Shown: piece after piece, positions 2,145 to 37,384 of the stretch
Position numbering within the stretch: position 1 is the stretch's first letter
Layout of the letters: each line of letters begins with the position of its first letter
Source of the DNA: a virus
Strand: one strand, 5' to 3'
IMG/VR virus record: IMGVR_UViG_3300049740_002723
Span: 1 to 37,384 of that record
DNA length: 37,384 nt
Position numbers and translations under genes: made by a program
The notes under the pieces: generated by a model
Told to the model about the DNA's origin: nothing
The model's input: only the letters and a program-made list of their open reading frames with translations
Databases searched by the model: none

Positions 2145-3323
2145 ATGATGAAACACACTAACCGTAGTGGTATGAAATCACACACCACCCGATACACATT
2201 CGCCACATCTTCGCGGAAAACGAAGATCTATAAACGCTCCGAAAAAGGAGGCTGGACTTTTAAGACAGTCGTCGAAAAAAAAGTTCGTTACTTCCCCCTC
2301 GGACTAGACAGAGATGAGGCTCTAAAAATGGCTGACACCATACGCGGGCATCTCATGCTTTACCCGTTTGACGAGGTTCTCAAAATGTTTAATAAAAAAG
2401 CATTTGCCAAGGTAAAACCCCCCGCTCCGACCTTTGGCCAAAGTCTTGCGATATTAAAGAAGCATCAGTCAGCTATTGGCCTACGGGACTCGTCCCTCAA
2501 GGGGTACAAAGACAGCCTTGGTGGATTCATTCGAAAAGTTGCCGGTAAGAAAACACTTGTCGATAAATTTGACCTATCTCAAATCGATGATGATTTTATT
2601 ATGGAGTACAAAAGAGTGTGTCTTGAAGGTATAACCGATGAGTCAAAGCTCGCGAGTCGTAAGCGGACGATCAACAGTCGGATCCGTCAGATCAAAGCAA
2701 TGTTTTCTCGGGAAAAGTTATTCAAGGAATTTGATATGACCTTTGTCGAAGATTTACGGGATGCAGAATTCTTTACCGGGTTGAAGACAAATTATAAGCT
2801 TCCGAGTGAAGATTTAATTAGAAGCACATTTGAGCTTTGGGAAGATAGCACTGGAGATTTAAGAACTCTGCTCGGGTTGGCTCTGCATTTTGGTATGCGA
2901 CGAAATGAAATTTTTCATGCTCGGAAGCCGTGGTTTCAAATGGATGGAGATAAGGCTAGAATTAATATCACATCGGACTTAAGTTTCAGGCCGAAAGGTG
3001 GGCATGAAGGGTTTACTCTCGGAAGTAAAACCGTGGCCGCTGATATTCTTAATAAAGCATCGGACGACGGTTATTTAATTGAAGAACGAGCTGACAGCGG
3101 TCGTCCATTATTTGATGCTGCCCTTGATAAATTACGAGCTATTGGCTGGGATCGCGCTAGCCCATTGCATGAACTTAGAAAGTTATTCGGATCCTACATA
3201 GCGAGTACCGAAAGTATTTATATCGCTCAGAAATTTCTCAGGCATGCCGATGCGAGCACGACAAATGACTCTTATTCCGATGCGATTATTGAGGGCGATA
3301 TAAAAAATCTATGGGTCGCTTAG
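2145..3323 (+). CDS. int: Tyrosine-recombinase integrase
   Basis: A 392-residue protein of usual phage integrase length. The catalytic set of the tyrosine recombinase family is visible: Arg in GMRRNE (R252), HELR at 342-345, His in RHAD (H367) and the nucleophile Tyr in NDSYSD (Y377). The N-terminal 90 residues are basic with a beta-type arm-binding look, followed by a SAM-like core-binding region (about 110-215). It would recombine the phage attP with the host tRNA-Leu gene. The gene lies 51 bases after the tRNA-Leu half, a classical int-attP arrangement. There are two consecutive ATG codons (2145, 2148), either of which may be the start. It converges on the late gene cluster with a 4-base overlap at 3320-3323. 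Confidence 0.93.
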   Translation: MMKHTNRSGMKSHTTRYTFATSSRKTKIYKRSEKGGWTFKTVVEKKVRYFPLGLDRDEALKMADTIRGHLMLYPFDEVLKMFNKKAFAKVKPPAPTFGQSLAILKKHQSAIGLRDSSLKGYKDSLGGFIRKVAGKKTLVDKFDLSQIDDDFIMEYKRVCLEGITDESKLASRKRTINSRIRQIKAMFSREKLFKEFDMTFVEDLRDAEFFTGLKTNYKLPSEDLIRSTFELWEDSTGDLRTLLGLALHFGMRRNEIFHARKPWFQMDGDKARINITSDLSFRPKGGHEGFTLGSKTVAADILNKASDDGYLIEERADSGRPLFDAALDKLRAIGWDRASPLHELRKLFGSYIASTESIYIAQKFLRHADASTTNDSYSDAIIEGDIKNLWVA

Positions 3324-5130: not shown

Positions 5131-8049
5131 TTAGCTTGTATCCCGCGTCCTAAAAGTGTTCGTAATTGTAGACCCGGAACTGTTCACATAAGCAACTTGA
5201 TCGCTAGGATTAGTTAGATTTGTAGAGGGTGTGGGCGTAATCCACACATTGTAATTTTGGTTGACTAGTGTTAAGGAGTGTTTCTCAAATGCACTGCTAG
5301 AACTAAAAGAGCCGCTATTACCTAAAAAGTGTGACTGATTAGAGGCTATTCCTATCTGAGGCTGACCGGGGATGGTGTTTGAGGTTGCATAATTAATACC
5401 TATATCCTTACCCTGATGGGCTCTAATACGGTACTGGCCGTCAGAGTCAGCGATTAGCCAAAAATACCTAGTGCCGCTAGCAGTGCTGTTTACTTTGCAC
5501 TTAACATACCAGGATGGGAATGTCCCATTTATTGTTTGAGCCCACTGGTATGTTTGACCACCCATCCCGTGAAGCCCGAAATCACTCCAATCCCGAAGAC
5601 CGCCCCAGCTCATTTTTACCCAATAAAGGTATCGGTCTTTAACACTAGCATTACCATGAATGTCGGGAACTTCCTCATATTTTACAGGCCCGATAAAGTC
5701 AGACGCACCGCTAACTGTCGGCCAGAAAGCTTCAATAGGAGTATCAAGCTTATTGGAGCTAAGGAAGTTACTCCAGGGCGCCCCGTCAAGCTCACTTTGC
5801 GAAGTAGGTATACTTGAGGCCGCCCCGGCTGCGGTTAACCCGTCCTTGAAGTACATGGCAGCCCCCGTTTGGAAATTGCTATTGGCATAAGCCGACATAA
5901 GAAACCACATTGAATCGGGACTCGAATTAGTATCGTTCCGATACGCGGAGAATAATTCAGGCTCCGCATTTAAATTAATCGGGGGTAAAACAGGAACAGT
6001 CGCGTCTAAATTTGTGGGAGCTTGGGGGAGGAACTCTAAATTTGGAGCCCACCGCCAAGCGAGAGCGGTTCCAAAACCGGCTGGGTGGATAAGCTCACCT
6101 GAAGTGTCCGTATGTGTACTTCCCAAATGCGCCGAGCTAATTTTATCAAAATTATAGAGCAAGTTACAATCTCCGTCGAGAGTACACAAATCGAGCGGGG
6201 TGTTAATTAGCTGGCCTGGAGTCACTCCTGTTGAAGTATAATGATCATTAACCACTGAAGTCGAAGCCGTATTAAAACACCCCGATCCGTTGTCTATCGG
6301 CGTTATCGTCAAGGTACTCCGAACGACGAGTGTAAAGGTTCTGCCGTCAGGCACCTCCCATTTAATATTGGAGCCGTTACCCCCATTATCAGCGTATGAC
6401 TCAAAAACTATGGATGTAACCCAATCACTTTGGGCGGCACAGCATGTTTTTTCGGCGAGTAAATTTATCGGAGCCAGAACCGTTTCAGCCGCAGCATTTA
6501 AATTAATAGGTGCAAGAACCGCATCGGCGGCTGCATTTAAGTTAATGGGGGCTAGAACCTGCTCGGATTCAGCATTTAAATTTATTGGTGCGAGAACTGG
6601 TTCCGCATCTGCATTTAAATTGATCGGAGCAAGAACCGGGTTAGCGGAGGCATTTAAGTTGATCGGTGCAAGAACCTGTTCAGCTTCAGCATTTAGATTT
6701 ATTGGTGCGAGAACTGATTCAGCCTCCGCATTTAAATTTATTGGAGCAAGAACCGCATCAGCAACTGCGTTTAGATTAATTGGTGCGATAACCGGCGATT
6801 TAGCATTTAAATTAATAGGTGCAAGAACCTGCTCGGCTTCAGCATTTAGATTGATTGGTGCGAGAACTGCATCGGCTTCCGCTACTAGATTAATTGGCGT
6901 ATGAACAGGCTCAGCTACTGCTCGAAGATGGAACGGAGCGTTAGGCATGTCATCCTTGATGAAATCTTTATACTCATCGGATTCGACGTAGATCCAATAC
7001 ATACCCGACAGCGGATCGTATGTTGCGAAGGAGCCGGATAGATCGACCGGTAATTCTTTCTCCCATTGACCTTTGGCCTTCATACTCGCCTGTCGAGGAT
7101 CGGATTGCGACTTGAAGTCCTCCGCCCCACGGCTTGCGGCCTCATCCTTATAAATTTGGCCATCGTGCCCAAGCCAGAATGGTTGGGTTCCGCTCTCACC
7201 AGCCACAACCTGAACGTTGACAGCTCCCGAAAAATTAGTGGCAGGAGCCTGCTCTACACGATATCCGGTGCTCGCCTGATCGGACTGAGGTGCATAGAGA
7301 AGATGACAACCCTTATCGGTATGAACTACGACCTGATCCCCCCGGGTCGAAAGAGCAGTAATTACCGAAGCATTTGATGATAGTATATCTACCGTGCTGA
7401 GGACTCCGGCATTGTGATTTGTTAATTCTGTGGAGTGTGGAGAATCGCGATATGGATTCGTCAACCCCGCGGGTTCCGAAATGTAAACGGTTAACGGCTT
7501 ATCCGGATTCCCCGCAGCAAAAATAGTTTTCTTCGGCCCCTGGACATAGAACTTACAGCTTGGGAATCTAGACCATTCCTGATCGTAAAGCATTTCATCG
7601 GGGAAAACGGAAGCTGTCGCGGCGGGCGGGCCTTTCCCAATGTACGCAGCTTCCGCGGTTCCATCGCCCATAGCATAAAGTCGATTCCCGATAGGTGTAA
7701 TCGCAGCTTCCTGATTATAGAGTGTCGGAGCCGCAACGGCGTAGGTCGAACCGAGAGATACGATATCCGTATTTTCGGTTGAAAATACCGCCATGTCATG
7801 GACATCGCCCGCACGGGAAACATAGACAACGGAGTTTCCTTTTCCGTCATCGGATCCGGTCATATGACTCTGCGAATTATCGCTGTCGGAAAAGAGATCA
7901 ACATCTCCGACCTTTTCCCAAACGGGCCCGGAACGCAGTCCTCCCGGCCCGTGGGGGACGCAGCCTTCGACAATCCTAAGGGATCCCCGATCGGCGTCAT
8001 CGCGGTGCGTTTCAATGCCCGTGAAGGCTGGTATCCGGAAAAACCTCAC
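5131..8049 (-). CDS. Tail nozzle-like protein with a 13-residue repeat shaft and large C-terminal region
   Basis: A 972-residue protein with a GTG start that overlaps the previous stop as GTGA. Residues 1 to about 370 look like the beta-propeller tail nozzle of short-tailed phages (P22 gp10/T7 gp12 type): R..P.FTG near the start, EGCVPHGPGGLRSGPVWE, GNPDKPLTVYISEP, and VVVHTDKGCHLLY. Residues about 370-530 are a tandem array of PINLNA repeats. After it come a Cys pair (CC), a beta-rich region, two more repeat copies near residues 675-697, and a C-terminal domain with many aromatic residues (YLYWVKMSWGGL) that may bind a receptor. The nozzle lies after the adaptor in particle assembly. The domain split is my reading; the exact fold needs structure prediction. 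Confidence 0.65.
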   Translation of the reverse strand: MRFFRIPAFTGIETHRDDADRGSLRIVEGCVPHGPGGLRSGPVWEKVGDVDLFSDSDNSQSHMTGSDDGKGNSVVYVSRAGDVHDMAVFSTENTDIVSLGSTYAVAAPTLYNQEAAITPIGNRLYAMGDGTAEAAYIGKGPPAATASVFPDEMLYDQEWSRFPSCKFYVQGPKKTIFAAGNPDKPLTVYISEPAGLTNPYRDSPHSTELTNHNAGVLSTVDILSSNASVITALSTRGDQVVVHTDKGCHLLYAPQSDQASTGYRVEQAPATNFSGAVNVQVVAGESGTQPFWLGHDGQIYKDEAASRGAEDFKSQSDPRQASMKAKGQWEKELPVDLSGSFATYDPLSGMYWIYVESDEYKDFIKDDMPNAPFHLRAVAEPVHTPINLVAEADAVLAPINLNAEAEQVLAPINLNAKSPVIAPINLNAVADAVLAPINLNAEAESVLAPINLNAEAEQVLAPINLNASANPVLAPINLNADAEPVLAPINLNAESEQVLAPINLNAAADAVLAPINLNAAAETVLAPINLLAEKTCCAAQSDWVTSIVFESYADNGGNGSNIKWEVPDGRTFTLVVRSTLTITPIDNGSGCFNTASTSVVNDHYTSTGVTPGQLINTPLDLCTLDGDCNLLYNFDKISSAHLGSTHTDTSGELIHPAGFGTALAWRWAPNLEFLPQAPTNLDATVPVLPPINLNAEPELFSAYRNDTNSSPDSMWFLMSAYANSNFQTGAAMYFKDGLTAAGAASSIPTSQSELDGAPWSNFLSSNKLDTPIEAFWPTVSGASDFIGPVKYEEVPDIHGNASVKDRYLYWVKMSWGGLRDWSDFGLHGMGGQTYQWAQTINGTFPSWYVKCKVNSTASGTRYFWLIADSDGQYRIRAHQGKDIGINYATSNTIPGQPQIGIASNQSHFLGNSGSFSSSSAFEKHSLTLVNQNYNVWITPTPSTNLTNPSDQVAYVNSSGSTITNTFRTRDTS
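6460..6942 (-). repeat. Tandem 39-base coding repeats (13-residue PINLNA units)
   Basis: Twelve copies of a unit with the consensus APINLNAEAEQVL, plus one degenerate copy at the 5' side (APFHLRAVAEPV). One unit (APINLNAKSPVI) is one residue shorter. The positions APINL and NA are strongly conserved while residues 8-11 vary. The third codon positions differ between copies, so the array is old or under selection at the protein level. The PINL-A pattern resembles the first strand of Fn3 domains and the GPTNISA linkers of two other genes in this window. Confidence 0.9.
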
Positions 8050-23095: not shown

Positions 23096-25120
23096 TTATC
23101 CTTGATATTGATTCATTCCTTGTGGGTTACTATTACCCATACCAGCAGTTGCGGCATTAACGCCATCGGTTGGTTGTGGGCTCTCGCCTCCCCCCTGTGC
23201 TGCATTGTCACCCAGCATCTTAGCGATTTCCGCTTCGGATTTTGGATCGGCCGGAGCTTCGGGAGGAAGTAACTCATCGGTCTTTTCAAATCCCATCGCA
23301 TCAAGAATGCGTTTAAGCATGGGACGAATAAAGGGGCGCATTTCGGGAGGGGATTGGAAGTAACGATCCTGAGTCTGCAATGCCAAATTGGCTTTCTCTA
23401 TAGCTCGCTGTCCTTGGTCCTGCGACAGCATGACCCGAACATTGATACCAATATCCTTAATCGCTTCGGGAGACATGACACCAAATGCCCGGACATCCCC
23501 TTCCATGTATTCAAATACTTCTTCCTCATCCACGGTAGCCATCGCGACTTGTACGAGCTTGGTCAGATGATCCTCAAATCCGCGGACAATTCTACGCATC
23601 CAACGACGACCAATCTTACTTGCCTCTCTTAATGTTGCTTCGACACCCGTCGCTGTATTTGCGGGAGCCAATGCCTGATAATCACCCTGTGCCATATTAG
23701 AAACGCCCAACCAGAGCTGGACGATACCAAATACGAAATCAATCAGATCCTGGGTGCGGATATCAACATTAGGCACAGCGGCGAAGGTCATAAAATCATC
23801 AATGCTATACTGATCCTTCAATTCAAATATCTTACCGGCATGCAATTCCACATCCTCCGGCTCATCTTCCACGGCCTGCGGGTTGACACCGATAATAGGA
23901 TTCGCAGCAAGCTCGTTGCGATAGCTTTGGGAGTTAAATTGTTTATCAACATACTCCTGAAAAGATCGAATCCGTTCGGGTAAGCTGTATCCACACCATT
24001 TGTTTCTGTCTTTTCCGATGGATACTGAGGTATACGGTATACGGTTATCAGGAGTTAGTTTTGCAACGAATTCGTAGAAGATTGGTTTTTCGGTTTCGGG
24101 ATCGATGAATATGCAAAATTCCTGAGGCTGTCCAGTGCCCATGACATCACGCTTAATCCAACATTCGAGAACCTGCATACTTGGATTTTCATCAGAATCA
24201 AAATCAAGGTTTTCTTTTCTCTCCTCATTCTTCTCGATTGGGCTTCTTGGATTCGCATCCTTATTTACCATGTTGTAAAAATCGGCGAAGCTTAACCAGT
24301 CGCGTTCGAGGAACATGTCCTTTGCCCAGCGAAGATCCTTGTCATACATTTCCACAATAAAATCAGCATCATCAATTGATTCTGCATCTGATGGGCATAG
24401 AAAACGATCTGAGTCCACGACCTCCGACCTTGGACCTTTGTACTTTACCATTTGAGTGGGGACTCCTTCCGGAAGTGGTTGGAATTCGTGTACACCCGGA
24501 GTCATTACGAAACTGGGATCTGATGCAAGTCGAAGTTCTGAGTCGCCGGTCATGGGGTTCATTTCTGGAATGAACTGGTCTTCACCCTCAATTATCGGTC
24601 CCTGGCCGGGGATCTCCTCAAAGGATCCGGTCTGCATATTAAAGAGTCCGTTTCTTTCGTAATCATACCATGTCGATACATCCTCCTCATATACTGCTTT
24701 TAGGACTAATGCCCGTTGGATAAATAAATGGAGGTACGATTCTTCGAGCCGTTCTCGGGTATTGGCACGATCCTCAATTTTCCAGTTAAAGTATTTATCG
24801 TAGGTCTCGGCCATATCAATATCTCCTGCTCCCTGAGCTTCGAATTTAAAATAAGGAGATGTACCGGTAATCTCATCCTCGGCACGAGCCATGAAGTGAT
24901 CGACCACGAGGCTGGTCATGGGAACGGATAGATTGGAGTGGCTAAATATTCCGTCGTACCCTACCCGATCGGTTCGATCATTGTGGTACATTTTCCATGA
25001 AATCTTATCGTTTTCAATACGCTCCCGATTGTCTTCCTTTAACTGCTCAACACGCTCCAGTGCATATTTAACCAGTTTATCTTCCTGTTTTTTTGTAAGC
25101 CGTAAATTTGTTTGTTTCAT
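23096..25120 (-). CDS. Portal protein (podophage type)
   Basis: A 674-residue protein of usual length for portals of short-tailed phages. The N-terminus is helical and charged (KQEDKLVKYALERVEQLKED), followed by IFSHSNLSVPMTSLVVDHFM. The central part has VDSDRFLCPSDAESIDDADF and PYTSVSIGKDRNKWCGYSLP, then the long-helix region QEYVDKQFNSQSYRNELAANP, and the helical barrel end (EKANLALQTQDRYFQSPPEM) with a Gln/Gly/Pro-rich tail. The portal forms the 12-fold ring through which DNA enters and leaves the head. Its ATG overlaps the stop of the giant gene (ATGA), so the two are translated together. Confidence 0.86.
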   Translation of the reverse strand: MKQTNLRLTKKQEDKLVKYALERVEQLKEDNRERIENDKISWKMYHNDRTDRVGYDGIFSHSNLSVPMTSLVVDHFMARAEDEITGTSPYFKFEAQGAGDIDMAETYDKYFNWKIEDRANTRERLEESYLHLFIQRALVLKAVYEEDVSTWYDYERNGLFNMQTGSFEEIPGQGPIIEGEDQFIPEMNPMTGDSELRLASDPSFVMTPGVHEFQPLPEGVPTQMVKYKGPRSEVVDSDRFLCPSDAESIDDADFIVEMYDKDLRWAKDMFLERDWLSFADFYNMVNKDANPRSPIEKNEERKENLDFDSDENPSMQVLECWIKRDVMGTGQPQEFCIFIDPETEKPIFYEFVAKLTPDNRIPYTSVSIGKDRNKWCGYSLPERIRSFQEYVDKQFNSQSYRNELAANPIIGVNPQAVEDEPEDVELHAGKIFELKDQYSIDDFMTFAAVPNVDIRTQDLIDFVFGIVQLWLGVSNMAQGDYQALAPANTATGVEATLREASKIGRRWMRRIVRGFEDHLTKLVQVAMATVDEEEVFEYMEGDVRAFGVMSPEAIKDIGINVRVMLSQDQGQRAIEKANLALQTQDRYFQSPPEMRPFIRPMLKRILDAMGFEKTDELLPPEAPADPKSEAEIAKMLGDNAAQGGGESPQPTDGVNAATAGMGNSNPQGMNQYQG

Positions 25121-28100
25121 GAAATTCCAAGCGACTGTGCTTTTTTGATGACCTTGACCATCATATTTAACTGCTTCTCTTCTATGTCCGCAATGCGTTG
25201 CATTTTTTGCGCTTCTGTCAGGTTCTTTGCACTTTCGACCTTCGACTTAAGTCTGCTGAACTTATTCTTTTGGGCTTCGAATCCTTTTATCTGGCTGGAC
25301 ATCGAAAGCAAAGGTCGCAGGTCTCGGTTCACCAGGCTGTAGGCTTTTGGGCTAATCTTCTTAGCATCCTTAATCGCACTCTCTGCGGTCTTAATTGTGT
25401 CCCGAAGGTTGTAGTACAATTCTCGGGTGTGCGAGCCGTAGGTCGTGCCTCGCATGAAACGGTTAATAATGGGAACCTGACCTACATTATCGATAGATGC
25501 GGTTCCTTTGGCTGCGGAGAATAAGCCTCCAAATGCAGTATCTAAGAGTTGTCCTGGACCACCTAAGTATCCATAGAACATATGCTTGAATTGATTTCCT
25601 GAAATATCAAATTTTATATCTGAATCCTGATCGTACATTAACGGATTCTTACTTCCAAAGGCTCCGGATAATGATCCTTTGATTACATCATTTCCACCAA
25701 AGAACTCATTTAATCCCTTTGATAATGCATTCCAATGTGCGGGTGTGCTTTTTGGATCCTGCATGTGTCCGGGTTTAGGTACTCCGAATTGATCATCTTT
25801 ATATCTGATTTCACGACCCATGAAATTCTTATTTGCCCATAATTCAATGATTGGGGTGACAAAGGTAGGGGTTCCGATTGTGGCAATACTTGCACCACCG
25901 ACTGGATTAAATGCATTCATTGAACTTTGCAGTAAACGATTCGCACCTTCCATTACTCCTGATCCTCCACGAATACCTCCGTAATTATTTGCAAATGTAT
26001 CCGCTACTACCTGACCCATTGACCAGAATAAATTGTACCCAAGAGGTAGGGGCATGCTGAAATATCCTGTGTCTTTTTTATCATTAAAGAAATCAGGCAG
26101 CCCCGCTGGGATTGGCATGATTAAATTAGTGTCTCTTTTATAACTGCTAATTGTGTCGTAATCCGGTACAGCCTCATCCTCATCGTCATCCATTAGACGA
26201 TTAAAGGTTGCGACTAGGAATGATGCGGTTGCAATTCCACCAATTAATGTAGCCCGCTCAGCCGGGCTCCTACGATTTAAGGTAGTCATGAAGCGATGTG
26301 TTGAATTAACTGCCGCTCCAAAGAATACATATAGTGATCCAAATGCCTGTGTCAGTTCACCCTTCTGATTGAAGTCCACGGTTATATTCCTGGACATGGT
26401 CGCTGATTCCTGAGGATTATATCCATTCTTAATCGCTGCCCAGAATGTGGACATACGAACAGAATTCTCTACACCCGTATTCGCGGCATCAACATATGAT
26501 AGTACATTTTTAAGACGACGCTTGGTTGCACCCTCGCTCTTACCGGTTTCTTTCTTTATTTTACGAATCAATTCGGGGACGGTGTCATGACGGACATATC
26601 CAATCTTTGCTCCGTTTCTTTTTGCGTAGGCATACATTTCAATCTTATCCCCGCGCTTTAAAATTGCCTGAGCGTACTGAGCTTCGGTTTGTCCTTTAAG
26701 CTTTTCTGTTCGGGTTCTACCCTCCATCGGGTCTTTGCCTTGGCTGATAAGAAGCTCGGCTTTTCCAATAGAAGTTATCCATTTTAAATTTTTAAATTTG
26801 AATACATCTTTAACCAGTTTCTTTTTATCGTCCTCAGTTAAATGGATAAATGCCGTTCCTAAATCCCGGAAAAAGTTGGGGATGATGAAAGCCGGATTCA
26901 TCGATGTAAACATTTGAGCCATGAATCTCGTAATCTTGTTGAAATATTTAAGAACTGAAGGAAGAGACTCGTACTTTAAATTTTTCATGGAACGAGCCAT
27001 GCGTGTACCCTTGGTGGTATTCTTAAATTTAATGAACATTGGGGTTCCGTTTACTCGGTAAACAAATACTAACGGGTCTTGTTTGAACTTAGCGTTTAAG
27101 GTTTTTCTTTTAGCTACAAATTCTCCCGTATTCCCATCGGTTACATACTCATCGCTAAATGTAAGCGTGTTTTTTTTCTGGGTCTCATTAAAATCCTGTT
27201 CAAAGATTTCATCGAATTCTTCCTTAATCTTCTTCTTCTGTTCTTCCGGTAATTTAGACATCTGACCGTAGGCAATTCTAAGTTCCGGATCACTCGGCTC
27301 ATACGGTTCTTCTCTATCGGGATACGCAATAGATCTCATCAATTCGAACATTTCTCCGAAGCTTCGGGAGACTTCATTCTTATGACTTCGAATTGCGGAA
27401 TCAAAGAATTGATTAATTGCATTTGCTAATACGCTGTCGGGGTTCGGACCGCGGGTTCCTTTTACTCGGCCAAATGCTGGATCGCGTAGCAGTTCTGATT
27501 TTGGCTGATCCCAACCTTTTCCAGAACTGTTCTGCCCTTTTCCTAATTCTTCCCATGCACGCTCGGCATCGAAGAATGCTTCGGTCTCTCCCTCAAATCC
27601 CTGCATGGGAGAGTATGAGTATTTCGGATCGGAGAGTTTAACTTTTGATCCGGCAAATCCAAATTTCTCTTTGGGGTCTGCCAAATCGATTTTGGACATT
27701 GCGCCAACCATGCGATCGTATTCGCTTAAACCCTCCTGGACACCATCAAGCTGCGCGCTCTCCCTAATCATGCTCGCATTTCTGAGCATGGATATAGATT
27801 CCTTATTCATGTTGTAATAAGGATCCAGTGCTTCATTTAAAAAGTTTACGAAATTAGCCCCGGTCTTTGGGTTATTTTCATACTCAGTAATTAAATTATA
27901 TGCTGCCTGATCGGATATTCCGGAATCTTTTATGGTATCATCTTCGTTGAGATACACATCTTTAATATCTGCGAGTGCATTTACTTTAGCCGTGCCGGTT
28001 AAGCCTTCGGCCTCCTCCTGGAGTCTTTTGACCTTATCCCTGAGATGTTGGTTTCTACTTGGTGCGGCACGGGCAAGGAGATATTTTCCAAAGGTACCTT

Positions 28101-31100
28101 GATCGATACCGTATTTAAGCATCGCATCCTTAATAGGCTGGATATATTGGATCCTAGCCTGTTCAACGGTGTCATACCCTTTTCCGAAATACTGGTGCCA
28201 TTTGCCGTGGACATTGAGCATATTGTAAAGACTACGCATTGGGCCTTTAGCGATGTCCAATCCGGATTCTTTTAGTGTTTCAAATAGTGAGCGGTGTACT
28301 TTCTTTAATGGATCCGCCTGGTCAACAAAGCTCATCATAAAGCTACCGGCTAATTCTGAATCCTTTTTGTCCTTAAGCCATTCCTCGAAATTCTTTTTTA
28401 ATTCGCTATCGCCCGCAATTCTGCTGAGAAGGTTTGCCTTCGCAAGATTTGGGTTAACGTCGCTGGTCAGCGTTGCATCGGAATTGAGCGTGCGGTCTGG
28501 GGTGGGAACTGCTTCGGATCGAAACATTTTTAATAAGGCCGCGGCATTTACCAGGTTTTCATAATCTTGTAGTGATTGATTCTTATCTTGAAATACATAG
28601 CCGTGAGCCATTTCGTGTAACGCCACAAAAGCTAAAACACCTGATTCATCTCGTACAACACCGCCTAAATTTTCAAAATCATAAAAAGATACTTTCGAGT
28701 TACTACTCATTAACTCTGAAGCTTTTTTGATTTTAAATGGGTCTATAGCCATACTGCTTCCTAAAAATCTACCAGCCGCACCCCCACTCTCTTTTTCAAA
28801 AGACATTGAGATTCCTGAAAATCTGTCTTTAAGGTAGGCGTTTATTTGGTCGATCTGTTTACTTGATGGTTTGCTTTCAGCAAGTGCTTTTTGGTACAGC
28901 CAATTTATATTTTCATCCGACTGTTTAGGTATTTTTGATTTTTGATTTTCTAGGAATGTCTGTAAGTCGTCTTTACTTAAGAACGCGGGTGTACCAGCCT
29001 TTATTTTTTCTATCGCGCTTAAAATGGGGGATTCTTTGGAAACCGTGCTTGTTTTTGGTTTAATGAACAGTTCAGATAGCTTATCCCGAACTATAAAATA
29101 GGAAGAGCCTATTTCTGAAGCCACCGCTTCTACTAAATCTTCTACTTCTAAATAATCAAAAAACTCACGCGGATGTTCTTTTTCCTGGATACTTTGATCT
29201 ATTAGTTTTGATAGGGTGCCCCACGATGAGCTACTTTTAATTGATTCTAATAGATTTGTAGAAGATGTGTTTTCTGATGTTTTCTCTTTAACTCTAACAC
29301 CCCGCCTTTTATTTGCGTAGTCCAATAGCTGTTTTGCTAAGTTATTAGGGCTTTGATCTAAAGGTACTTTTTCTATCCTTTTAATAGCGTTAAAACCATT
29401 GTATATATTTTTTATATCTTCTGAATCCCATCGAGCTCCTAACTGTAATATCTTACTTAATGGGGTACCTTTATTAACTAAAGACATGACCTTCAAAGCC
29501 ACAGTTAAATTGTTTCCAACCGGAGTTCCTATATCTGAATTTAAAGTTTTTGATTTAGTTTTTGAAAAAATAACATTGTTTACGGTTTTTAAAAAATTAT
29601 CGACTTGCTTGCCCGCATCGGAATTGAGCGTGCGGTTCTTGCTCTTGCTGTCGCTGGGTGTAGTGAACTGATTGCCTTGCGCTGTGCCAAACATGTTCGC
29701 ACTGTAGGCATCGTAGTTAATTTTCTTATCCAGAAAAATATCGTTTTTTGTCCTGCCCGTTTGATCTTCCTTGATTATTATGTTGATTTCCTTTGCAACA
29801 CTTTCAAGCACTGACCCCTTGTAATCTGACTGAGTCACTCCAAAAGCCCTGAGTACCCAGTTCATCATTAAATCGAAGAAGGTCATATCCACCAGAAGAC
29901 CTTTATCGTGCCATTTTAAGTCTAACCCAAGAGAATCAAACTCTTCCTTGCTAATCTTCTGCGATATTAAATACTCAGCAACATCAGGACTAGTGAATGC
30001 CATTGTTGGCATCTCTGCTACATCGGAAAGGAAGTAGTCTAGTGCGTAACTTTCATAACTAGAGTCACGCTTACTAATAATAAAATCTCGAATTTTTTCT
30101 AAGTTTTCGTACGAGGTTTTGTATTTTGGATTCTTACGAAACTTTCTTGCCCTACGTTTAATCCGAGCTTTATTGATAAACTCCTCCACTCTGCCAATCG
30201 TTTGTTCATCATTATTACCAAGAATATCCAAACTCTTAATCAATTTCGGGTCGGAGTGCTTTATGCCTATTAGAGGTGATGTTATTGCGTGCCAAGTCTC
30301 ATGCATTATCGTCTCAATCAGGCTCTCCGGGGTGGCACTTTGATAATAATCACTGTCTACGGTAATCGTATTCGTTGGCATTCTGTACACACCCCAAAGT
30401 TCCATTTTCTCTCCGGTAACAATGTCTTTTCCGGATTTTTTAAGTTTAGAAACTTTAAATTTGGTTTTTCTTCCGTAGGGTGATTCCTTTAGAAGCGTAG
30501 ACATCAAGATTGATGCTTCAGTAAATATGTCATTAAACTTGCCCTTGTAATCTTTTTCTACCGCACTAAGTGCTTCGGTTAAAAGTATCTTCTTGCCACC
30601 CTTTATTTTCTCCGAAAGCTCTGGCGTGAACTGATTGCCTTGGACTCCCGCAACCTTCGCACCGGTCTTGATATTCGCGGCGGCAAATCCCATGAGCGTG
30701 GATTTCGTAGATCCTTGCCGCCCGATATCGGAATTGAGCGTGCGGTTCTTGCTCTTGCTGCTATTGGGGGTGAAGGTTTCCTCAAATTCTTTTACATTCT
30801 CGGCTAACTGAGCTTGTTTAAAGCTGTCAGTCATTGAGTCGTCGGTGAAAGCTTTTATCTCCTCAGGAGTTTTGTCTTTCAAATTTGACTTAACCAGATC
30901 CGATAGCGTAATTGGTTTCTCTACAGGGTTTTTATTTACTGGGTCGGGATCAACACCAAGTTCCTGTCTTTTATCATTTTGGAACTGGTTTAAAGATTCC
31001 TGTTCTACTGGGTTAACCTCAACCTTTGGTGTTTGAGCACCTGAATCTGTGTCGTCTGCTTCAGTCTGCATCTCCGCGGAATCATCCTTATCAAAACTTT

Positions 31101-34100
31101 CTGCTTTCTGTGTATCTCGCTGGAGTAGATTTTCTGAATTTGGATCGAACTGATCGTATACATCAATACCTTCAGCATCTAAAACTGCCTGAACAATGGG
31201 TCGGGTCAGTGCTTCCATAACTTCCGGATGCATCATACCTTCCTTATCTGAGAACATGTTAAAATCGACAAGTTCTCCACCCATCATCATTCGACCTTCT
31301 GTATAAGTCCAATCAAAGGTTTTATCTGATTCTGCGTCTTTGATCTTAAGATCTAAATCCTTGATATTTAAGTTTTCATACATCGCAGTTATGAAATCTC
31401 TAAAGACATATGGGAGAAGTCCTTCGCCAAGGCCGCCTGGTAGTTGTTTATTATCCTTAGATGACGGGGTCATCTGCAAGTCAGCCATTCGATTAACTTC
31501 AGAACCCTTAGCGCCTAAATACCAGTTAGCGAGATCGACAGCACTAATGTCTGTTGATGATAGTAGATCCGCTTCAGCCCGATCCATGTTGATTGGGCGT
31601 GCGGGTGCTGTTTCTGAATTACCAACATTAGTTCTTTCTTTTTCGAATCCTGTCGATGTACCCATGAGCATATCAGCTACGAGCTCAGGAGATTCACGCC
31701 TTTTAGAAAAGGCTGTCATGACATCAAAGGTTTTATACATATCGCCGGCGGTAAAAGCTCCGTGATCACCTTTTGCAGGTATGTTTTCTGATGTCCGACT
31801 CAGAGGTCTTCTAAAATCATAAACATCTTCCGGTTTTACTCGGAACTTTGAAACTGTTTTTGACTGAGGTTTGGAGACTCCACCAACAACCTCTAAAGTG
31901 TGTCCGTTTAACTGGTCGCTTAAATATTTTTCATTATCTACTCTTGCGCGTAAAAGCTCATAGGCTTCTGTAAGACTTTCTTGAATCTTTTTAGGTATGG
32001 GGACTAACTTTCCTTCAACTTCAACTCCGCGTTTTTCTTTTATAGAGGTTATATAATCACCAAATTTTTTAAGAGCTACTTGAGGGTTTTCTCCTGAGAG
32101 GGAGTCTAAACGCAGACCTTCTTTGCTCATTTCTAGGTTGAATTTGGAAGATGTTGAATCGGAAAGTTGCGTATTTTCTACAATGTAATCTAAATACTCT
32201 CTTTCAAACTTGAGACGGGCTTTTGTACTCAACACCCCGAGCAGAGTCTTAGCTAGTGTTGCACCGGGCTGAACTTTTATAAACGGATCACCATCTTCTT
32301 CTGCATATTCAAATTGATTCTCAAGATCGCTTGGAACACCACCTTTATCCTTCTCCCCGAGAAGTTTGGATTTCATTTCTTCCCGTGCGATTACAAAAAG
32401 CATGCGATCGAAATCTTTCATAGAATCGCTTGGATCACCAAGCAGTTCTAATGTTCGGCCGTTAGCCATCATCAGTGCTACAACATCAGGAATTGTAGGC
32501 TCGAGAGTTTCTAAATCGAAATTTGCGTATGCTTTTGTACCATCAGATTTTACTTTTCCGGATAAGCCTTTTTGCCTAATTCTTTCGGCAATAACCGCTC
32601 CAAAATTTGCTCCGCGCTCTGTGGTAAAACCGCTGGGGTATCCGCGTCGGGCTTCTTGTTTAATATTGTTTTCTACTTCCCAACGAGCAGAACCCATAGG
32701 CTCCTTACCAATATCCTGTTGCTTTGTGAACATAGCAGAAGCTTTTACAGCTTCCAGTTTCATACGGTATTGGTTTTCGGTTAGCCCTCCGTAAAAAGGT
32801 TTTTTGACTGTCGCTTTATCTTTATCGGAAACGGGTGGTGGTTTAAATTCGCGATTTACATAATCCCAAAGATACTCCTGAGGAGTTCTTGTATCTTCCT
32901 TGTCCTTTTCCTGACGACTTACTTTATATTCTATGTTCGGATATTCTGTAGACTTATCATCTATAACATCCCAATCCTTCATCCCTGCTAGCATGCCTAG
33001 GGTGACCGGTTGGAACTTATTGTATTCTGGGCTGTATACTTTGTCACCTTTTACCATTTTATACCTGCGGTAGGTCATCAAACTATGCGGTACATCCTTC
33101 CAATCAACGGATGCTTCCTCAGGAGCGATAAAATGAAGGTACATTTTTACCAGCTTACGCTTTGACTGGAGCTCGGTTATTTCTGCCTCCGATTCGGCCT
33201 CGATGCGTTTAATTAAATTCAGAGACTTCTTAGTATTCGAGGCCAACGGATTAAGGCTTGCGATCTCCCGGTCGATCTCAGCGAGTCTGAGGTTGAGCAA
33301 TTCTTTAATATCCTCGATTCTCTCCCTTGCCTCGGTTGCCATGTCCTCAATATCCTTGGAGCTTGGAACCTTGGATCGGCTGGCGGTGGGGTTCATCGCT
33401 TTCTCAATTTCGGATACGAATGAGATGGGAGATGCCTTGAGTAATGTTTCTAGGTTAAGAACTTTTGAAATAATCTGAGTAATACTTGGGCTACCCTCTT
33501 CTCCTAGTTCTCTTATCGCTTCCCCGATCGCTTTGTCTATAGAAACTACGGAATCGAACTTTGCTTGATTTTCGCTTAACTGATCCTTCAGATCACGAAT
33601 TTGGTCTAGCTCTTCTTTTGTTTTTGGAAGAATTTTATCGAGCTTAAGTATTTCCTGCTCGCTTCTGCTTGTTGCTTTCGGGTTAACCGAAGCGGTTGTA
33701 TTATTCTTTGAAGGTGTGCGTTGATTGAGCTTATCCTGTTCGGTTCCGAGTTTGGGATCCGGCCCGTCAATAACAGCTGGCCTAGCTGGATCGGGGTAGT
33801 TTTTTGGTGCAATCTCATCGACTCGGAATGCGACTGTTTCTTTTTGTTTCGCTTTTCTTATAGCATCGCGCTTTTTTCTAATCTCTGCTTTTTGTGCTTC
33901 CTTCTTCTCCGCTCTTTTTATTCTTTTCTGTGCGGCTTTGGAGTTTGGCTTTGATTTAAATAATCCGTCGGACTTTTGAGATTCTCTTGGTGCAGTTCCC
34001 AGTTCTTTTGGTAGTTCTTTCCCGCCTGGTGATTCGCTTATCTCCTCTTGCTTGGGCTTTGGCTGAAAACCCCCATCCTCTCTAAGCTGCTGCTCGTTTA

Positions 34101-37100
34101 ATTCTTCGGAAGATAATTCGTCTTGTGGTTGATCTTTTGCGTCATAACCATCGGTCTTTTTTCTTTTAGCTATTTTCTTTTCTAATCGTCTAAGATTAGA
34201 TTCCTTCAGTGTATCCGCTACAGTTTCCGCATCTTTCTTTTTCTTATCAAGCTCCTCAATATCTTTAGACGCTGCGACCGCTGCGGCTCTGTTCATATTC
34301 GAATAGAATGACGGGCTTTCCGTAAGGATGTCCGCGCCGAGCATTGCGTTAACCGCTTTTGCGATTTTGGATTTCTCCTGCGGAGTTCCCGGCATTGCGT
34401 TAAGCTTTGTCTGGGTCTGCTCTCTGGTCTGCGGGGTCGGGCTGCTGGGCGTGCCCCCTTCGTCTGGAACCTTGGGGGTAGGCATTCCGTTTTCGTATCC
34501 TAGGAATTGTAAGATCTTTTGGTCTAATATATAGCCCTGCTCGCTTTTACCTCCGGCTAGATTTTCTGTTCCCGCGTATTCGCCAAGGATTGGGTGGATA
34601 ACTTTGTCCTTAAAATTCTTAAGAGGCTTAGCAACATTCTTATCAACGGTGTACCCCATGAGCACCCTACCCCATTGGTATGAGAACCATTCTTCGGCCA
34701 GGACATCATCAGGAGTTCGGTCAAATGCTCGCCTAACTTTCTTCTGAGTTTTCTCATCCAATGAATCAAAAGTAGCATCTGGCTTCTTGGTAAAATACTG
34801 GGTATATGCTTCGAGCTGACTGTCTTCACCCAGCCCACCCCATGCGGATCTTAACTCCTCATCGGACATAACCATGATCCTGGCAAAGTGACCGGATTCA
34901 TGCATGAATGCACCCATTGGATCTGCGGCAAATTCCTTTTCATTAATGTACATGATGTTATGTCCATCACGTGCTTCAAAGGTTCCTCGGTTTTTAAGAT
35001 TGGCATCCGGAGTCCGTGGGCTGAATGCAATCTTTAATTTAGACATCTCATCCGGATTAGCTGCGTACATACGCTCAACCCAGTTTTGGGTAAACTGCAA
35101 TGTTTCCGGATTAACTCCTTGCACACTTTGGAGATGCCCCATCATTGATTCGGCATCATTAAATGTCTGATAAGGTGCGGAATATCCGGCACGGGTAACA
35201 GTTCCCATGGATCCGGTCTCGGTCATATTCTCGCCGGTTATTTCAATCGGGGCATTACCAAAATAGTTACCGCTTCGGCTCCGCATTTCCAATGCCGATG
35301 ATAGTACACCTGGGCCAACGCCAACAATTCCTTCAGCGGCAATTGCATCCCAGTCCCAATCCTCGCCAGGTTCTTTACTTGCCCATTGTCCGAGATACTC
35401 TCCGGACATACCCATGAGCGAATCAGCACCTAGTTCAGCCGCAGCATTACGGGTTTTTTGAAATTTTGTAAACCGGGGAACTGCTCCAGCGGTTTTATTG
35501 AACTGTGTCTTATTTAAAAGCTTACCACCCTTGAACATTGCGTTACCGGTATGGTTCGCAATTGCCATGACTTTACCAGCCATCATACCCGTAAGCATAT
35601 CGGCAACCGCTATCGGTGTGCCCTTCTGAACCATCTTCTTTTGGATCTTATTTCTTATGCTTTCATTGGTCCATGCGGCCGCAAATATCTTTGGATTCTT
35701 CCAATCAATTCCTAATTCCTGCATTCCTTCCAATGCCATGCCCGATGCTTCGAGAACAAAGGATGCCGCACCCCATGATGCTCGAGCTCCCAAAGCTGCA
35801 CCCGCGGCCGTTCCGGCTCCGGGAATGATTGAACCGGCCAATGCTCCGGTTGCTGTGGTAGGGATCATCCATTTGATTGCAGATGGAAGAAAAGAGGATA
35901 ATGACTCCACGAACATTTCTGGAATCGCGGCGGGATTATCAAATAATAGATTTCCCATTGCATCGAGGAAGCCATCCGATTTGGTTGACTTCACCCGTTT
36001 CATGGTTGAGCTGGTCGGAAGCTTTTCGATCTCAGATGCAATCTCAATGAATTTCTGCATCTCATCCGCATCCAAGGTATTGGTTAGAAAGTCGGGAGTA
36101 TAATTACTCATTTCACTCATGAGCAATCCACGCTTAACCGCATTTCCAATAGCAGATAACCAACCCGTAGTTTCAGCCTGCTCGAATAATTCATTATCCA
36201 ATCCGAACTGAGATGCTAATCCAATAGTCTTGTTTACCTCTTCCCTGGCCGCTTCCATTTTCTCGCGCAAGGCATCGCCTTTTGCTCCACCGGAATTCTT
36301 TAAATACTCAAGCTGTACATCTTCGTAATTACTTTTCGCGGCGTAGACGGATTGCATGACCTTTGCGACTTTCAATCTTTCCTCTCCGCCCAAAGACTCA
36401 ATTGCCTGTTCAATAGGCTGACCTTTGTACTCGGTCATTCCAGCCTTCTTCATCTCCTCGAGATCAAGAAGATCCGTATCCTTACGGCTCATACCAATAG
36501 GTCGTCCGTCAATCTGACCACCGTTTGAGAACATGAATCCTTTGTCGCGAAGCTGTCTATCTCTCGCGACCGATTGCCTGCGACTTAAGAATCCAGCCAT
36601 GTCCCCACGCATTGCAGCTTCTAATCTTTTAGTCTGCTTACCTGCGGCTGGAGTCCTTTGACCCGTGACCATATTAACTGCGGATGGGACGCTCTTTCTG
36701 GGGTCTGTTCTTTCTAAATTAGTAACCTCGCCCGTAACCATATCGACGACCGGTTTTTCGAACTGCATCTGATTGAGCATTTCATCAGTTGCTTTTTTGC
36801 TTCTCGGTTTTGCGGTTCGTGACTTAAGACTTGCGTCCAATGCCTCGCGCTGTGGAATCGGAATACTGGTCATTTGCTCGAACAGAGCATATTCCATAGC
36901 TTCTGCCTGATCCGCTGCGGCCTTACGCCTATCCCTTTCGGCCTTTAGCCTGAGAAATTTGTCCCGCATCCCATTTGGTTGGTTCCAGGATGCGTACTTT
37001 TTTAAATTTTCTTGGGACGCAAGTTTTGAGTCAGGTGATCCAAAAAAGCCATCTTCTTGCTGACTGTTCTTGAGATCGGATTTGTACATCTCATCGATTG

Positions 37101-37384
37101 CACTGATGTACTCCTCATCGGTCTCAAAGTCTCCAAATCCACCCATGCTTTCAAAGTAGGGTGTAAATTCATTTTTCTTAAAATCGTCGTACAAAGTCCC
37201 GTAATGACTGGCAGATCTTTTGTTCTCCCGTGCGTACTGGCTGATCTGGCTGTGCTGATTTTTTGCCTGCTCGTAGAGATCCAGGTCGTACCCATTAAAA
37301 TTATGATATGGCTGGGGCTGCTGCTGGGGTTGAGGCTCGGGCGGAGCGTATTGGGGCTCAGCTATTGAGCTTTGGGGTGTTTGA
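25117..37384 (-). CDS. Giant polyvalent protein with three zincin motifs and an LPD38-like end, 5' truncated by window edge
   Basis: The frame is open through the right edge, so at least 4088 residues; numbering here is from the TTG codon at 37194. Upstream is a Gln/Pro-rich stretch. Residues about 438-490 form a Gly/Ala-rich hydrophobic region (PTTATGALAGSIIPGAGTAA). Three HExxH zinc-protease motifs are seen: HESGH 765-769, HETWH 2298-2302 and HEMAH 2860-2864. Residues about 1000-1200 are charged, helical or disordered. From about 2990 on, the protein resembles the LPD38-type region of phage polyvalent proteins (MNPAFIIPNFFRDLGTAFIH; IMPIPAGLPDFF; TPIIELWANKNFMGREI). Such proteins are thought to be packaged and delivered with the DNA. 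It is coupled to the portal by ATGA. I see no N4-type RNA polymerase motifs. Confidence 0.82.
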   Translation of the reverse strand, partial: QTPQSSIAEPQYAPPEPQPQQQPQPYHNFNGYDLDLYEQAKNQHSQISQYARENKRSASHYGTLYDDFKKNEFTPYFESMGGFGDFETDEEYISAIDEMYKSDLKNSQQEDGFFGSPDSKLASQENLKKYASWNQPNGMRDKFLRLKAERDRRKAAADQAEAMEYALFEQMTSIPIPQREALDASLKSRTAKPRSKKATDEMLNQMQFEKPVVDMVTGEVTNLERTDPRKSVPSAVNMVTGQRTPAAGKQTKRLEAAMRGDMAGFLSRRQSVARDRQLRDKGFMFSNGGQIDGRPIGMSRKDTDLLDLEEMKKAGMTEYKGQPIEQAIESLGGEERLKVAKVMQSVYAAKSNYEDVQLEYLKNSGGAKGDALREKMEAAREEVNKTIGLASQFGLDNELFEQAETTGWLSAIGNAVKRGLLMSEMSNYTPDFLTNTLDADEMQKFIEIASEIEKLPTSSTMKRVKSTKSDGFLDAMGNLLFDNPAAIPEMFVESLSSFLPSAIKWMIPTTATGALAGSIIPGAGTAAGAALGARASWGAASFVLEASGMALEGMQELGIDWKNPKIFAAAWTNESIRNKIQKKMVQKGTPIAVADMLTGMMAGKVMAIANHTGNAMFKGGKLLNKTQFNKTAGAVPRFTKFQKTRNAAAELGADSLMGMSGEYLGQWASKEPGEDWDWDAIAAEGIVGVGPGVLSSALEMRSRSGNYFGNAPIEITGENMTETGSMGTVTRAGYSAPYQTFNDAESMMGHLQSVQGVNPETLQFTQNWVERMYAANPDEMSKLKIAFSPRTPDANLKNRGTFEARDGHNIMYINEKEFAADPMGAFMHESGHFARIMVMSDEELRSAWGGLGEDSQLEAYTQYFTKKPDATFDSLDEKTQKKVRRAFDRTPDDVLAEEWFSYQWGRVLMGYTVDKNVAKPLKNFKDKVIHPILGEYAGTENLAGGKSEQGYILDQKILQFLGYENGMPTPKVPDEGGTPSSPTPQTREQTQTKLNAMPGTPQEKSKIAKAVNAMLGADILTESPSFYSNMNRAAAVAASKDIEELDKKKKDAETVADTLKESNLRRLEKKIAKRKKTDGYDAKDQPQDELSSEELNEQQLREDGGFQPKPKQEEISESPGGKELPKELGTAPRESQKSDGLFKSKPNSKAAQKRIKRAEKKEAQKAEIRKKRDAIRKAKQKETVAFRVDEIAPKNYPDPARPAVIDGPDPKLGTEQDKLNQRTPSKNNTTASVNPKATSRSEQEILKLDKILPKTKEELDQIRDLKDQLSENQAKFDSVVSIDKAIGEAIRELGEEGSPSITQIISKVLNLETLLKASPISFVSEIEKAMNPTASRSKVPSSKDIEDMATEARERIEDIKELLNLRLAEIDREIASLNPLASNTKKSLNLIKRIEAESEAEITELQSKRKLVKMYLHFIAPEEASVDWKDVPHSLMTYRRYKMVKGDKVYSPEYNKFQPVTLGMLAGMKDWDVIDDKSTEYPNIEYKVSRQEKDKEDTRTPQEYLWDYVNREFKPPPVSDKDKATVKKPFYGGLTENQYRMKLEAVKASAMFTKQQDIGKEPMGSARWEVENNIKQEARRGYPSGFTTERGANFGAVIAERIRQKGLSGKVKSDGTKAYANFDLETLEPTIPDVVALMMANGRTLELLGDPSDSMKDFDRMLFVIAREEMKSKLLGEKDKGGVPSDLENQFEYAEEDGDPFIKVQPGATLAKTLLGVLSTKARLKFEREYLDYIVENTQLSDSTSSKFNLEMSKEGLRLDSLSGENPQVALKKFGDYITSIKEKRGVEVEGKLVPIPKKIQESLTEAYELLRARVDNEKYLSDQLNGHTLEVVGGVSKPQSKTVSKFRVKPEDVYDFRRPLSRTSENIPAKGDHGAFTAGDMYKTFDVMTAFSKRRESPELVADMLMGTSTGFEKERTNVGNSETAPARPINMDRAEADLLSSTDISAVDLANWYLGAKGSEVNRMADLQMTPSSKDNKQLPGGLGEGLLPYVFRDFITAMYENLNIKDLDLKIKDAESDKTFDWTYTEGRMMMGGELVDFNMFSDKEGMMHPEVMEALTRPIVQAVLDAEGIDVYDQFDPNSENLLQRDTQKAESFDKDDSAEMQTEADDTDSGAQTPKVEVNPVEQESLNQFQNDKRQELGVDPDPVNKNPVEKPITLSDLVKSNLKDKTPEEIKAFTDDSMTDSFKQAQLAENVKEFEETFTPNSSKSKNRTLNSDIGRQGSTKSTLMGFAAANIKTGAKVAGVQGNQFTPELSEKIKGGKKILLTEALSAVEKDYKGKFNDIFTEASILMSTLLKESPYGRKTKFKVSKLKKSGKDIVTGEKMELWGVYRMPTNTITVDSDYYQSATPESLIETIMHETWHAITSPLIGIKHSDPKLIKSLDILGNNDEQTIGRVEEFINKARIKRRARKFRKNPKYKTSYENLEKIRDFIISKRDSSYESYALDYFLSDVAEMPTMAFTSPDVAEYLISQKISKEEFDSLGLDLKWHDKGLLVDMTFFDLMMNWVLRAFGVTQSDYKGSVLESVAKEINIIIKEDQTGRTKNDIFLDKKINYDAYSANMFGTAQGNQFTTPSDSKSKNRTLNSDAGKQVDNFLKTVNNVIFSKTKSKTLNSDIGTPVGNNLTVALKVMSLVNKGTPLSKILQLGARWDSEDIKNIYNGFNAIKRIEKVPLDQSPNNLAKQLLDYANKRRGVRVKEKTSENTSSTNLLESIKSSSSWGTLSKLIDQSIQEKEHPREFFDYLEVEDLVEAVASEIGSSYFIVRDKLSELFIKPKTSTVSKESPILSAIEKIKAGTPAFLSKDDLQTFLENQKSKIPKQSDENINWLYQKALAESKPSSKQIDQINAYLKDRFSGISMSFEKESGGAAGRFLGSSMAIDPFKIKKASELMSSNSKVSFYDFENLGGVVRDESGVLAFVALHEMAHGYVFQDKNQSLQDYENLVNAAALLKMFRSEAVPTPDRTLNSDATLTSDVNPNLAKANLLSRIAGDSELKKNFEEWLKDKKDSELAGSFMMSFVDQADPLKKVHRSLFETLKESGLDIAKGPMRSLYNMLNVHGKWHQYFGKGYDTVEQARIQYIQPIKDAMLKYGIDQGTFGKYLLARAAPSRNQHLRDKVKRLQEEAEGLTGTAKVNALADIKDVYLNEDDTIKDSGISDQAAYNLITEYENNPKTGANFVNFLNEALDPYYNMNKESISMLRNASMIRESAQLDGVQEGLSEYDRMVGAMSKIDLADPKEKFGFAGSKVKLSDPKYSYSPMQGFEGETEAFFDAERAWEELGKGQNSSGKGWDQPKSELLRDPAFGRVKGTRGPNPDSVLANAINQFFDSAIRSHKNEVSRSFGEMFELMRSIAYPDREEPYEPSDPELRIAYGQMSKLPEEQKKKIKEEFDEIFEQDFNETQKKNTLTFSDEYVTDGNTGEFVAKRKTLNAKFKQDPLVFVYRVNGTPMFIKFKNTTKGTRMARSMKNLKYESLPSVLKYFNKITRFMAQMFTSMNPAFIIPNFFRDLGTAFIHLTEDDKKKLVKDVFKFKNLKWITSIGKAELLISQGKDPMEGRTRTEKLKGQTEAQYAQAILKRGDKIEMYAYAKRNGAKIGYVRHDTVPELIRKIKKETGKSEGATKRRLKNVLSYVDAANTGVENSVRMSTFWAAIKNGYNPQESATMSRNITVDFNQKGELTQAFGSLYVFFGAAVNSTHRFMTTLNRRSPAERATLIGGIATASFLVATFNRLMDDDEDEAVPDYDTISSYKRDTNLIMPIPAGLPDFFNDKKDTGYFSMPLPLGYNLFWSMGQVVADTFANNYGGIRGGSGVMEGANRLLQSSMNAFNPVGGASIATIGTPTFVTPIIELWANKNFMGREIRYKDDQFGVPKPGHMQDPKSTPAHWNALSKGLNEFFGGNDVIKGSLSGAFGSKNPLMYDQDSDIKFDISGNQFKHMFYGYLGGPGQLLDTAFGGLFSAAKGTASIDNVGQVPIINRFMRGTTYGSHTRELYYNLRDTIKTAESAIKDAKKISPKAYSLVNRDLRPLLSMSSQIKGFEAQKNKFSRLKSKVESAKNLTEAQKMQRIADIEEKQLNMMVKVIKKAQSLGIS
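28475..28496 (-). repeat. Direct repeat copy (RTLNSD), shorter form
   Basis: These 22 bases are identical to bases 29615-29636. They encode RTLNSDA, residues about 2901-2907 of the giant protein. The repeat sits just after the third zincin motif (2860-2864). Confidence 0.85.
29533..29556 (-). repeat. Diverged copy of the LNSD motif
   Basis: Encodes KSKTLNSDI (residues about 2547-2555). The protein motif is kept but the codons differ from the other copies, so this is an older or independently kept copy. Confidence 0.7.
29617..29650 (-). repeat. 34-base direct repeat, copy 2 (KSKNRTLNSD)
   Basis: Identical over 34 bases to 30727-30760. It encodes KSKNRTLNSD, residues 2517-2526. A second short repeat of 17 bases encoding GNQFT lies next to it at 29663-29679. 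Confidence 0.92.
29663..29679 (-). repeat. 17-base direct repeat (GNQFT), copy 2
   Basis: The 17 bases are identical to 30626-30642 and encode QGNQFT. The two copies lie 963 bases apart and enclose the second zincin motif. Confidence 0.85.
30626..30642 (-). repeat. 17-base direct repeat (GNQFT), copy 1
   Basis: Partner of 29663-29679; encodes QGNQFT about 30 residues after the first KSKNRTLNSD copy. Confidence 0.85.
30727..30760 (-). repeat. 34-base direct repeat, copy 1 (KSKNRTLNSD)
   Basis: Encodes KSKNRTLNSD, residues 2147-2156 of the giant protein, and lies 1110 bases from copy 2. The second zincin motif is between the two copies. Confidence 0.92.

Follow-up and report, generated by a model that had tools for sequence, protein, structure and literature searches.

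A probable in-frame cassette socket bordered by short linker repeats in a giant polyvalent-type phage gene

Results

A giant cysteine-free protein is encoded beside the portal gene

The stretch of DNA analyzed here (the window) is a 37,384-base virus record, IMGVR_UViG_3300049740_002723, from a marine phage. The giant gene considered below and the features that place it are as follows.

25117 to 37383, minus strand: giant polyvalent-type gene, 12,267 nt with no stop across 4088 aa; the frame is open at the edge of the record, where the 5' end of the gene is cut
34888 to 34902, minus strand: third HExxH motif of the giant gene, in its conserved N-terminal half and far outside the repeat intervals; also present in sister contig L006
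25525 to 26166, minus strand: LPD38 domain (aa 3740-3953, E 1.5e-25), part of the conserved C-terminal backbone
23096 to 25120, minus strand: portal gene (phrog_1216, E 1.3e-22), directly downstream of the giant gene
2145 to 3323: tyrosine integrase, close to the end of the window opposite the giant gene

In L006 the gene is whole and encodes 3943 aa; by comparison, about 43 N-terminal residues are absent from the window copy. PHROG families of giant phage proteins match the C-terminal part of the protein, and its LPD38 domain within a 4088-aa frame gives it the character that defines polyvalent proteins, a giant multidomain chain with LPD domains. A capsid gene (Phage_capsid_3) lies beyond the portal gene, further along the window. 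The gene order is equal in a Bacteroides phage, where a giant gene annotated as DarB-like is followed by the portal gene.

The 4088-aa giant protein contains no cysteine, whereas 26 other window ORFs that were examined have 55 cysteines in a total of 7475 residues. Cysteine was likewise missing from 13 of 14 giant proteins compared, several of them close kin and two partial, and from both of two proteins added later; the exception was a partial Bacteroides protein (L096) with 8 cysteines. N4-type virion RNA polymerases also lack cysteine, which is explained by their passage through the tail in the portion of PMC3915230 available to us. By this analogy the absence of cysteine supports ejection of the giant protein and, together with the neighboring portal gene, suggests without proving that the protein is probably ejected into the host. 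Eight exchanged cassettes, from the window lineage and from Vibrio phages, also have no cysteine in 2129 residues, which suggests that they originated in, or adapted to, other ejected proteins. Cysteine-free giant proteins of the LPD38 type were found in very different phages (the window, L019, L020, L090-L095, L110, L111, L114 and L115).

Two short contigs (L112 and L113), assigned to a Gammaproteobacteria and a Flavobacteriales MAG, also carry the lineage's portal gene at 95-97% identity. Both contigs stop short of the site of interest, and their genomes gave no match to the left part of the giant gene.

Identical linker repeats divide the giant gene

Within the giant gene, copies of a short linker, RTLNSD or its extended form SKSKNRTLNSD, delimit two segments.

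30727 to 30760, minus strand: copy 1 of the border repeat, SKSKNRTLNSD, at the left border; matches 29617-29650 at all 34 nt
29651 to 30726, minus strand: cassette 1, zincin-type, with HExxH at 30289-30303 and a sub-threshold SprT-like match; absent from sister contigs L003 and L006
30626 to 30642, minus strand: first copy of the QGNQFT repeat, 17 nt identical to 29663-29679
29663 to 29679, minus strand: second copy of the QGNQFT repeat, 17 nt identical to 30626-30642
29604 to 29650, minus strand: middle border repeat SKSKNRTLNSDAGKQ (copy 2); 29604-29649 equals the left border of L006 at 46 of 46 nt
29527 to 29565, minus strand: codon-different border copy SKTKSKTLNSDIG, with 10 of 13 residues and 20 of 39 nt kept
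28497 to 29526, minus strand: cassette 2, AT-rich (GC 36%, GC3 29%), with HExxH at 28603-28617; absent from L003 and L006
28475 to 28496, minus strand: right border repeat RTLNSD, 22 nt identical to 29615-29636; homology on the right restarts inside it

The coordinates given for the repeat copies in an earlier, sequence-only reading of this DNA were all correct on re-checking, as was its division of the region into two segments of about 1.1 kb with one HExxH motif each. That reading also described a fourth copy that keeps the residues but changes the codons; TLNSD is indeed kept, but the arginine is lost and the peptide reads K-TLNSDIG. The copies are spaced by 1110 and 1140 nt, both multiples of 3, and every copy lies in one open frame.

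The repeats far exceed chance expectation. Exact repeats in the giant gene reach 34 nt, whereas the longest in each of 150 codon-phase-aware simulations measured 12-18 nt. The 17-nt QGNQFT repeat is marginal by itself, since 3 of 150 simulations reached at least 17 nt. At the protein level, 10 distinct 6-mers recur in the giant protein, compared to 0-4 in 200 shuffles, and all of its repeated 6-residue peptides fall within the locus, in five pairs. Given the codon usage of the gene, the probability of independently encoding RTLNSD with just these codons is 2.3e-4, and that of SKSKNRTLNSD 5.7e-7. With independent coding this improbable, the identical copies share descent. In the TLNSDIG core of the codon-different copy, none of the six changes over 21 nt alters a residue (probability by chance about 3e-5), a hint that the peptide matters too. 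We make no claim of constraint at the DNA level between phages, since an unchanged 18-mer is unremarkable at about 6% divergence.

Sister phages carry other modules between the same borders

A scan of viral contigs yielded five loci with the C-terminal part of the giant gene, of which L003 and L006 alone reach the repeats (the L006 contig also bears the label L015), so the comparison at this site involves three phages in all. Further scans of viral contigs, phage records and prophages gave no additional relatives reaching it. The flanks of the window and the two relatives are about 87-93% identical in nucleotides over kilobases. Both relatives have RTLNSD borders, and neither has the two HExxH modules of the window between them. 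Instead, this place is taken in L003 by an ART-PolyVal domain (PF18760, E 4.1e-7, 31.3 bits against a cut-off of 31.2) and in L006 by a module of about 250 aa with no convincing family match, which on reading its sequence gives the impression of being ART-like. Neither cassette had a match in phage records.

The breakpoints fall in the repeats. In BLASTN alignments with either relative, homology on the left stops exactly where the repeat ends, on its final base (window position 30727); on the right it resumes inside the repeat, at 28496 for L006 and 28488 for L003. The right border of L003 reads RILNSD and shares the last 12 of the 18 core bases, with four differences among the first six. The right flank adjoining the border is unusually similar: its first two 100-nt bins are the most identical of 51 (99 and 100% for window and L006, 100 and 98% for window and L003), and over the first 200 nt all three phage pairs are 98-100% identical, as if this flank had recently been homogenized. 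On the left, the 100 nt of flank closest to the border show no extra conservation (83-93%).

The sequence-only reading had proposed that the protease modules may be swapped like cassettes, and had suggested checking whether related genes have whole modules present, absent or replaced between the repeats. Wholesale replacement, with breakpoints inside the repeats, is what both relatives display, and neither has the same module order with repeats away from the borders. The alternative modules are, however, not proteases, which argues that the socket takes effectors in general.

Two unrelated zincin-type modules stand in tandem

Modules 1 and 2 of the window have no BLASTP similarity beyond chance. 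Only the linkers were therefore duplicated: their identical copies share descent, and neither zincin module is a copy of the other. Module 2 has no family match, and module 1 has just its sub-threshold SprT-like match besides HExxH; that match and the HExxH motifs are all that hints at enzymatic conflict domains in the window itself. Single-sequence structure models were unusable (mean pLDDT 42 for module 2, and 37), and solved structures and PADLOC gave nothing useful or convincing for the locus. No donor of either module was found in viral contigs or phage records.

The middle repeat and its context match the left border of L006 at all 46 nt, so this copy appears once to have been the left border, before module 1 was inserted upstream of it. 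If a second cassette were added at a border, two unrelated modules in tandem would be expected. GC content is 21% in the 21 codons that separate the middle repeat from the codon-different copy, compared to 42-47% in the other backbone segments of the gene, and the codon-different TLNSDIG copy lies at the start of module 2, within AT-rich codons. On the simplest account, module 2 arrived together with a border of its own, from a phage that differed in base composition and used the same peptide.

Several exact direct repeats of 22-35 nt elsewhere in the window (3672/3717, 6493/6802 and 15862/16003) are unrelated to the socket.

Other sites of exchange in giant phage genes

A second socket distinguishes the window from L006.

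33196 to 33255, minus strand: second socket, about 20 aa in the window against 319 aa (DprA-like plus DUF4326) in L006

The L006 insert (aa 1423-1742, locus about 5220-6177) contains a DprA-like domain (phrog_768, E 3.2e-18) and DUF4326 (E 6.4e-6), and a 16-nt repeat encoding QGQGP or KGQGP lies between the two and again after DUF4326. Because 16 nt or more was reached in 10 of 150 simulations, this repeat carries weight by its position, not its length.

In Vibrio phages, for which six of 101 matched records were examined, identity among the giant genes exceeds 90% as far as the linker EPTAPDGLE, beyond which there are four contents in four distinct genes: those of 1.205.O (an HExxH module), 252E42.2, D171 and K249 (L019, L020, L114 and L115). 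D96a and D79 equal 252E42.2 at the protein level. A diverged motif, PSAKDTFV or PDAKDTFV, is common to the left border of 1.205.O and the right border of 252E42.2, and its best 11-mer score is 38, whereas none of 239 random pairs scored above 29. Repeats do not mark every site of this kind: the insert by which Vibrio phages 1.232.O and D274 differ, beside a zincin-like motif, has no clear border repeat. The giant protein of L094 differs from that of L110 by an insert of about 130 aa (aa ~2054-2178) that appears GNAT-like by eye, adjoins HELVVH and has no evident border repeat.

Searches did not show RTLNSD to recur outside this lineage. A search for it gave 10 stretches, in which L003 and L006 were the sole relatives and the rest chance matches. 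A further search gave 66 stretches, one of them (L024) inside another LPD38 protein; we treated it as chance because the TLN part is lost in its 12 relatives. RTLNSD as a widespread motif was rejected on this basis. LNSD was not found in nine other giant proteins, nor the motif in 26 other window ORFs.

Discussion

Exchange at the linkers and its alternatives

These data point, in our judgment with good though far from complete probability, to an in-frame cassette socket in a giant, probably ejected, polyvalent protein, whose modules are exchanged at linker repeats. Effector modules would sit between copies of (SKSKN)RTLNSD, and phages with a common backbone would swap, gain or lose whole modules because all of these have a common linker DNA at their ends, read in one frame; a crossover that joins any pair of linkers, or lies in the shared flanks, would then restore an open frame. 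A second cassette added at a border would yield the tandem array of the window. The exchange could be carried out by general homologous or annealing-type recombination of phage or host, and we infer that crossovers occur at the repeats and that the modules work in the infected cell. This proposal accommodates the borders and the frame as well as the tandem array and the homogenized right flank. Counting against it, repeats of 18-34 nt are short for RecA-type recombination, and among the window proteins scanned the tyrosine integrase was the one recombinase. The base of three phages, the failure to find a donor for either zincin-type module, the ordinary conservation of the left flank, the altered right border of L003, the Vibrio insert lacking a border repeat and the near-chance lengths of the 16- and 17-nt repeats also weigh against it. 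Nothing links this integrase to the repeats, and we do not claim membership of an integron-like system.

Ordinary homologous recombination in the long flanks could instead have made the mosaic, with the linker as the mere edge of homology and the repeats not acting as joints. Kilobase flanks at 87-93% identity favor this, the right flank is homogenized, the 1.232.O/D274 insert has no border repeat, and three phages cannot tell repeat-borne from flank-borne crossovers. We nevertheless consider this account doubtful, if possible: it leaves unexplained both the same 18-22 nt at either end of each cassette and the third full copy, in its L006-type context, between the window modules.

According to a further alternative the peptide came first. 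RTLNSD would be kept as a signal, possibly a cleavage site at which one of the protein's own zincin domains frees each module in the infected cell, and the DNA identity would be a by-product of recent duplication. The silent changes in the codon-different copy agree with this, as does the N-terminal HExxH motif common to the window and L006; zincin self-processing is also proposed, with cleavage of P1 DdrB cited, in the part of PMC5512222 accessible to us. However, the same portion describes the N4 virion RNA polymerase as packaged uncleaved, LNSD is absent from the other giant proteins and window ORFs, the L024 match is not kept in its relatives, and a peptide role alone leaves the replaced modules unexplained. 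We judge it unlikely.

Misassembly is very unlikely. The contig is environmental, and different alleles of a locus occur side by side in nature, so the two-module tandem could be a chimera in which the 34-nt repeat joined two alleles from a single sample, but the frame is open through all copies, the middle repeat has its own distinct context, and the same borders occur in two other contigs. A 34-nt repeat is also shorter than the usual assembly words. Even if true, misassembly would leave the swap between phages standing. Chance or duplication of a whole ancestral module, which the similar lengths (1110 and 1140 nt) and the single HExxH motif of each segment might suggest, can be set aside as most improbable and was rejected, since the repeats lie far beyond simulation and the modules are dissimilar.

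Returning to exchange at the linkers, we tentatively entertain an extension in which the linker is a dual-purpose joint: its DNA would allow modules to be plugged in and stacked in frame across base compositions, and its peptide would serve as a shared signal, perhaps cut so that each module is freed inside the infected cell. Phages would then draw on a communal pool of injectable, cysteine-free effectors.

Relation to known systems

Domain mosaicism of polyvalent proteins and cassette exchange in polymorphic toxins are known, and domain swapping between ejection proteins is in print (PMC8954989, in the portion available). In a limited search of the open-access literature we found no description of border repeats inside such giant genes, or of repeat-punctuated sockets. 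The locus would offer a base-level picture of effector gain and loss in giant ejected phage proteins, for which the picture has hitherto been one of domain mosaicism. If the borders are recognizable, unknown anti-host or counter-defense effectors may be found between them in sister phages, and module exchange is testable at the bench.

In integron gene cassette arrays, repeats likewise lie between exchangeable units arranged in tandem. The present locus resembles them in working, but its units are in-frame protein segments, with no demonstrated site-specific recombinase or structured site. The giant protein shares with the N4 virion RNA polymerase its great size, lack of cysteine, an HExxH-bearing domain and, probably, ejection, as far as the consulted text of PMC3915230 and PMC12633501 goes. 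Unlike that polymerase, it has no RNA polymerase family match in family profile searches, and the same text describes no module sockets for the N4 protein. Polymorphic toxins recombine as cassettes (Zhang et al. 2012, PMC3482391, available in part), and as in those systems a conserved carrier here exchanges toxin-type domains. In contrast to them, the variable part is internal rather than C-terminal; the conserved backbone returns and is followed by the portal gene. Standalone cassettes were not seen here. The likeness extends to polyvalent proteins, for which the accessible part of Iyer et al. 2017 (PMC5512222) describes mosaicism at the domain level, for example in Helicobacter jhp1044: these too are giant, multidomain and mosaic and have LPD38, and zincin-type motifs, putative ART modules and likely delivery on infection add to the resemblance. 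What sets the present locus apart from that description is a defined socket, bordered by short, DNA-identical repeats, at which phages that are otherwise nearly identical diverge.
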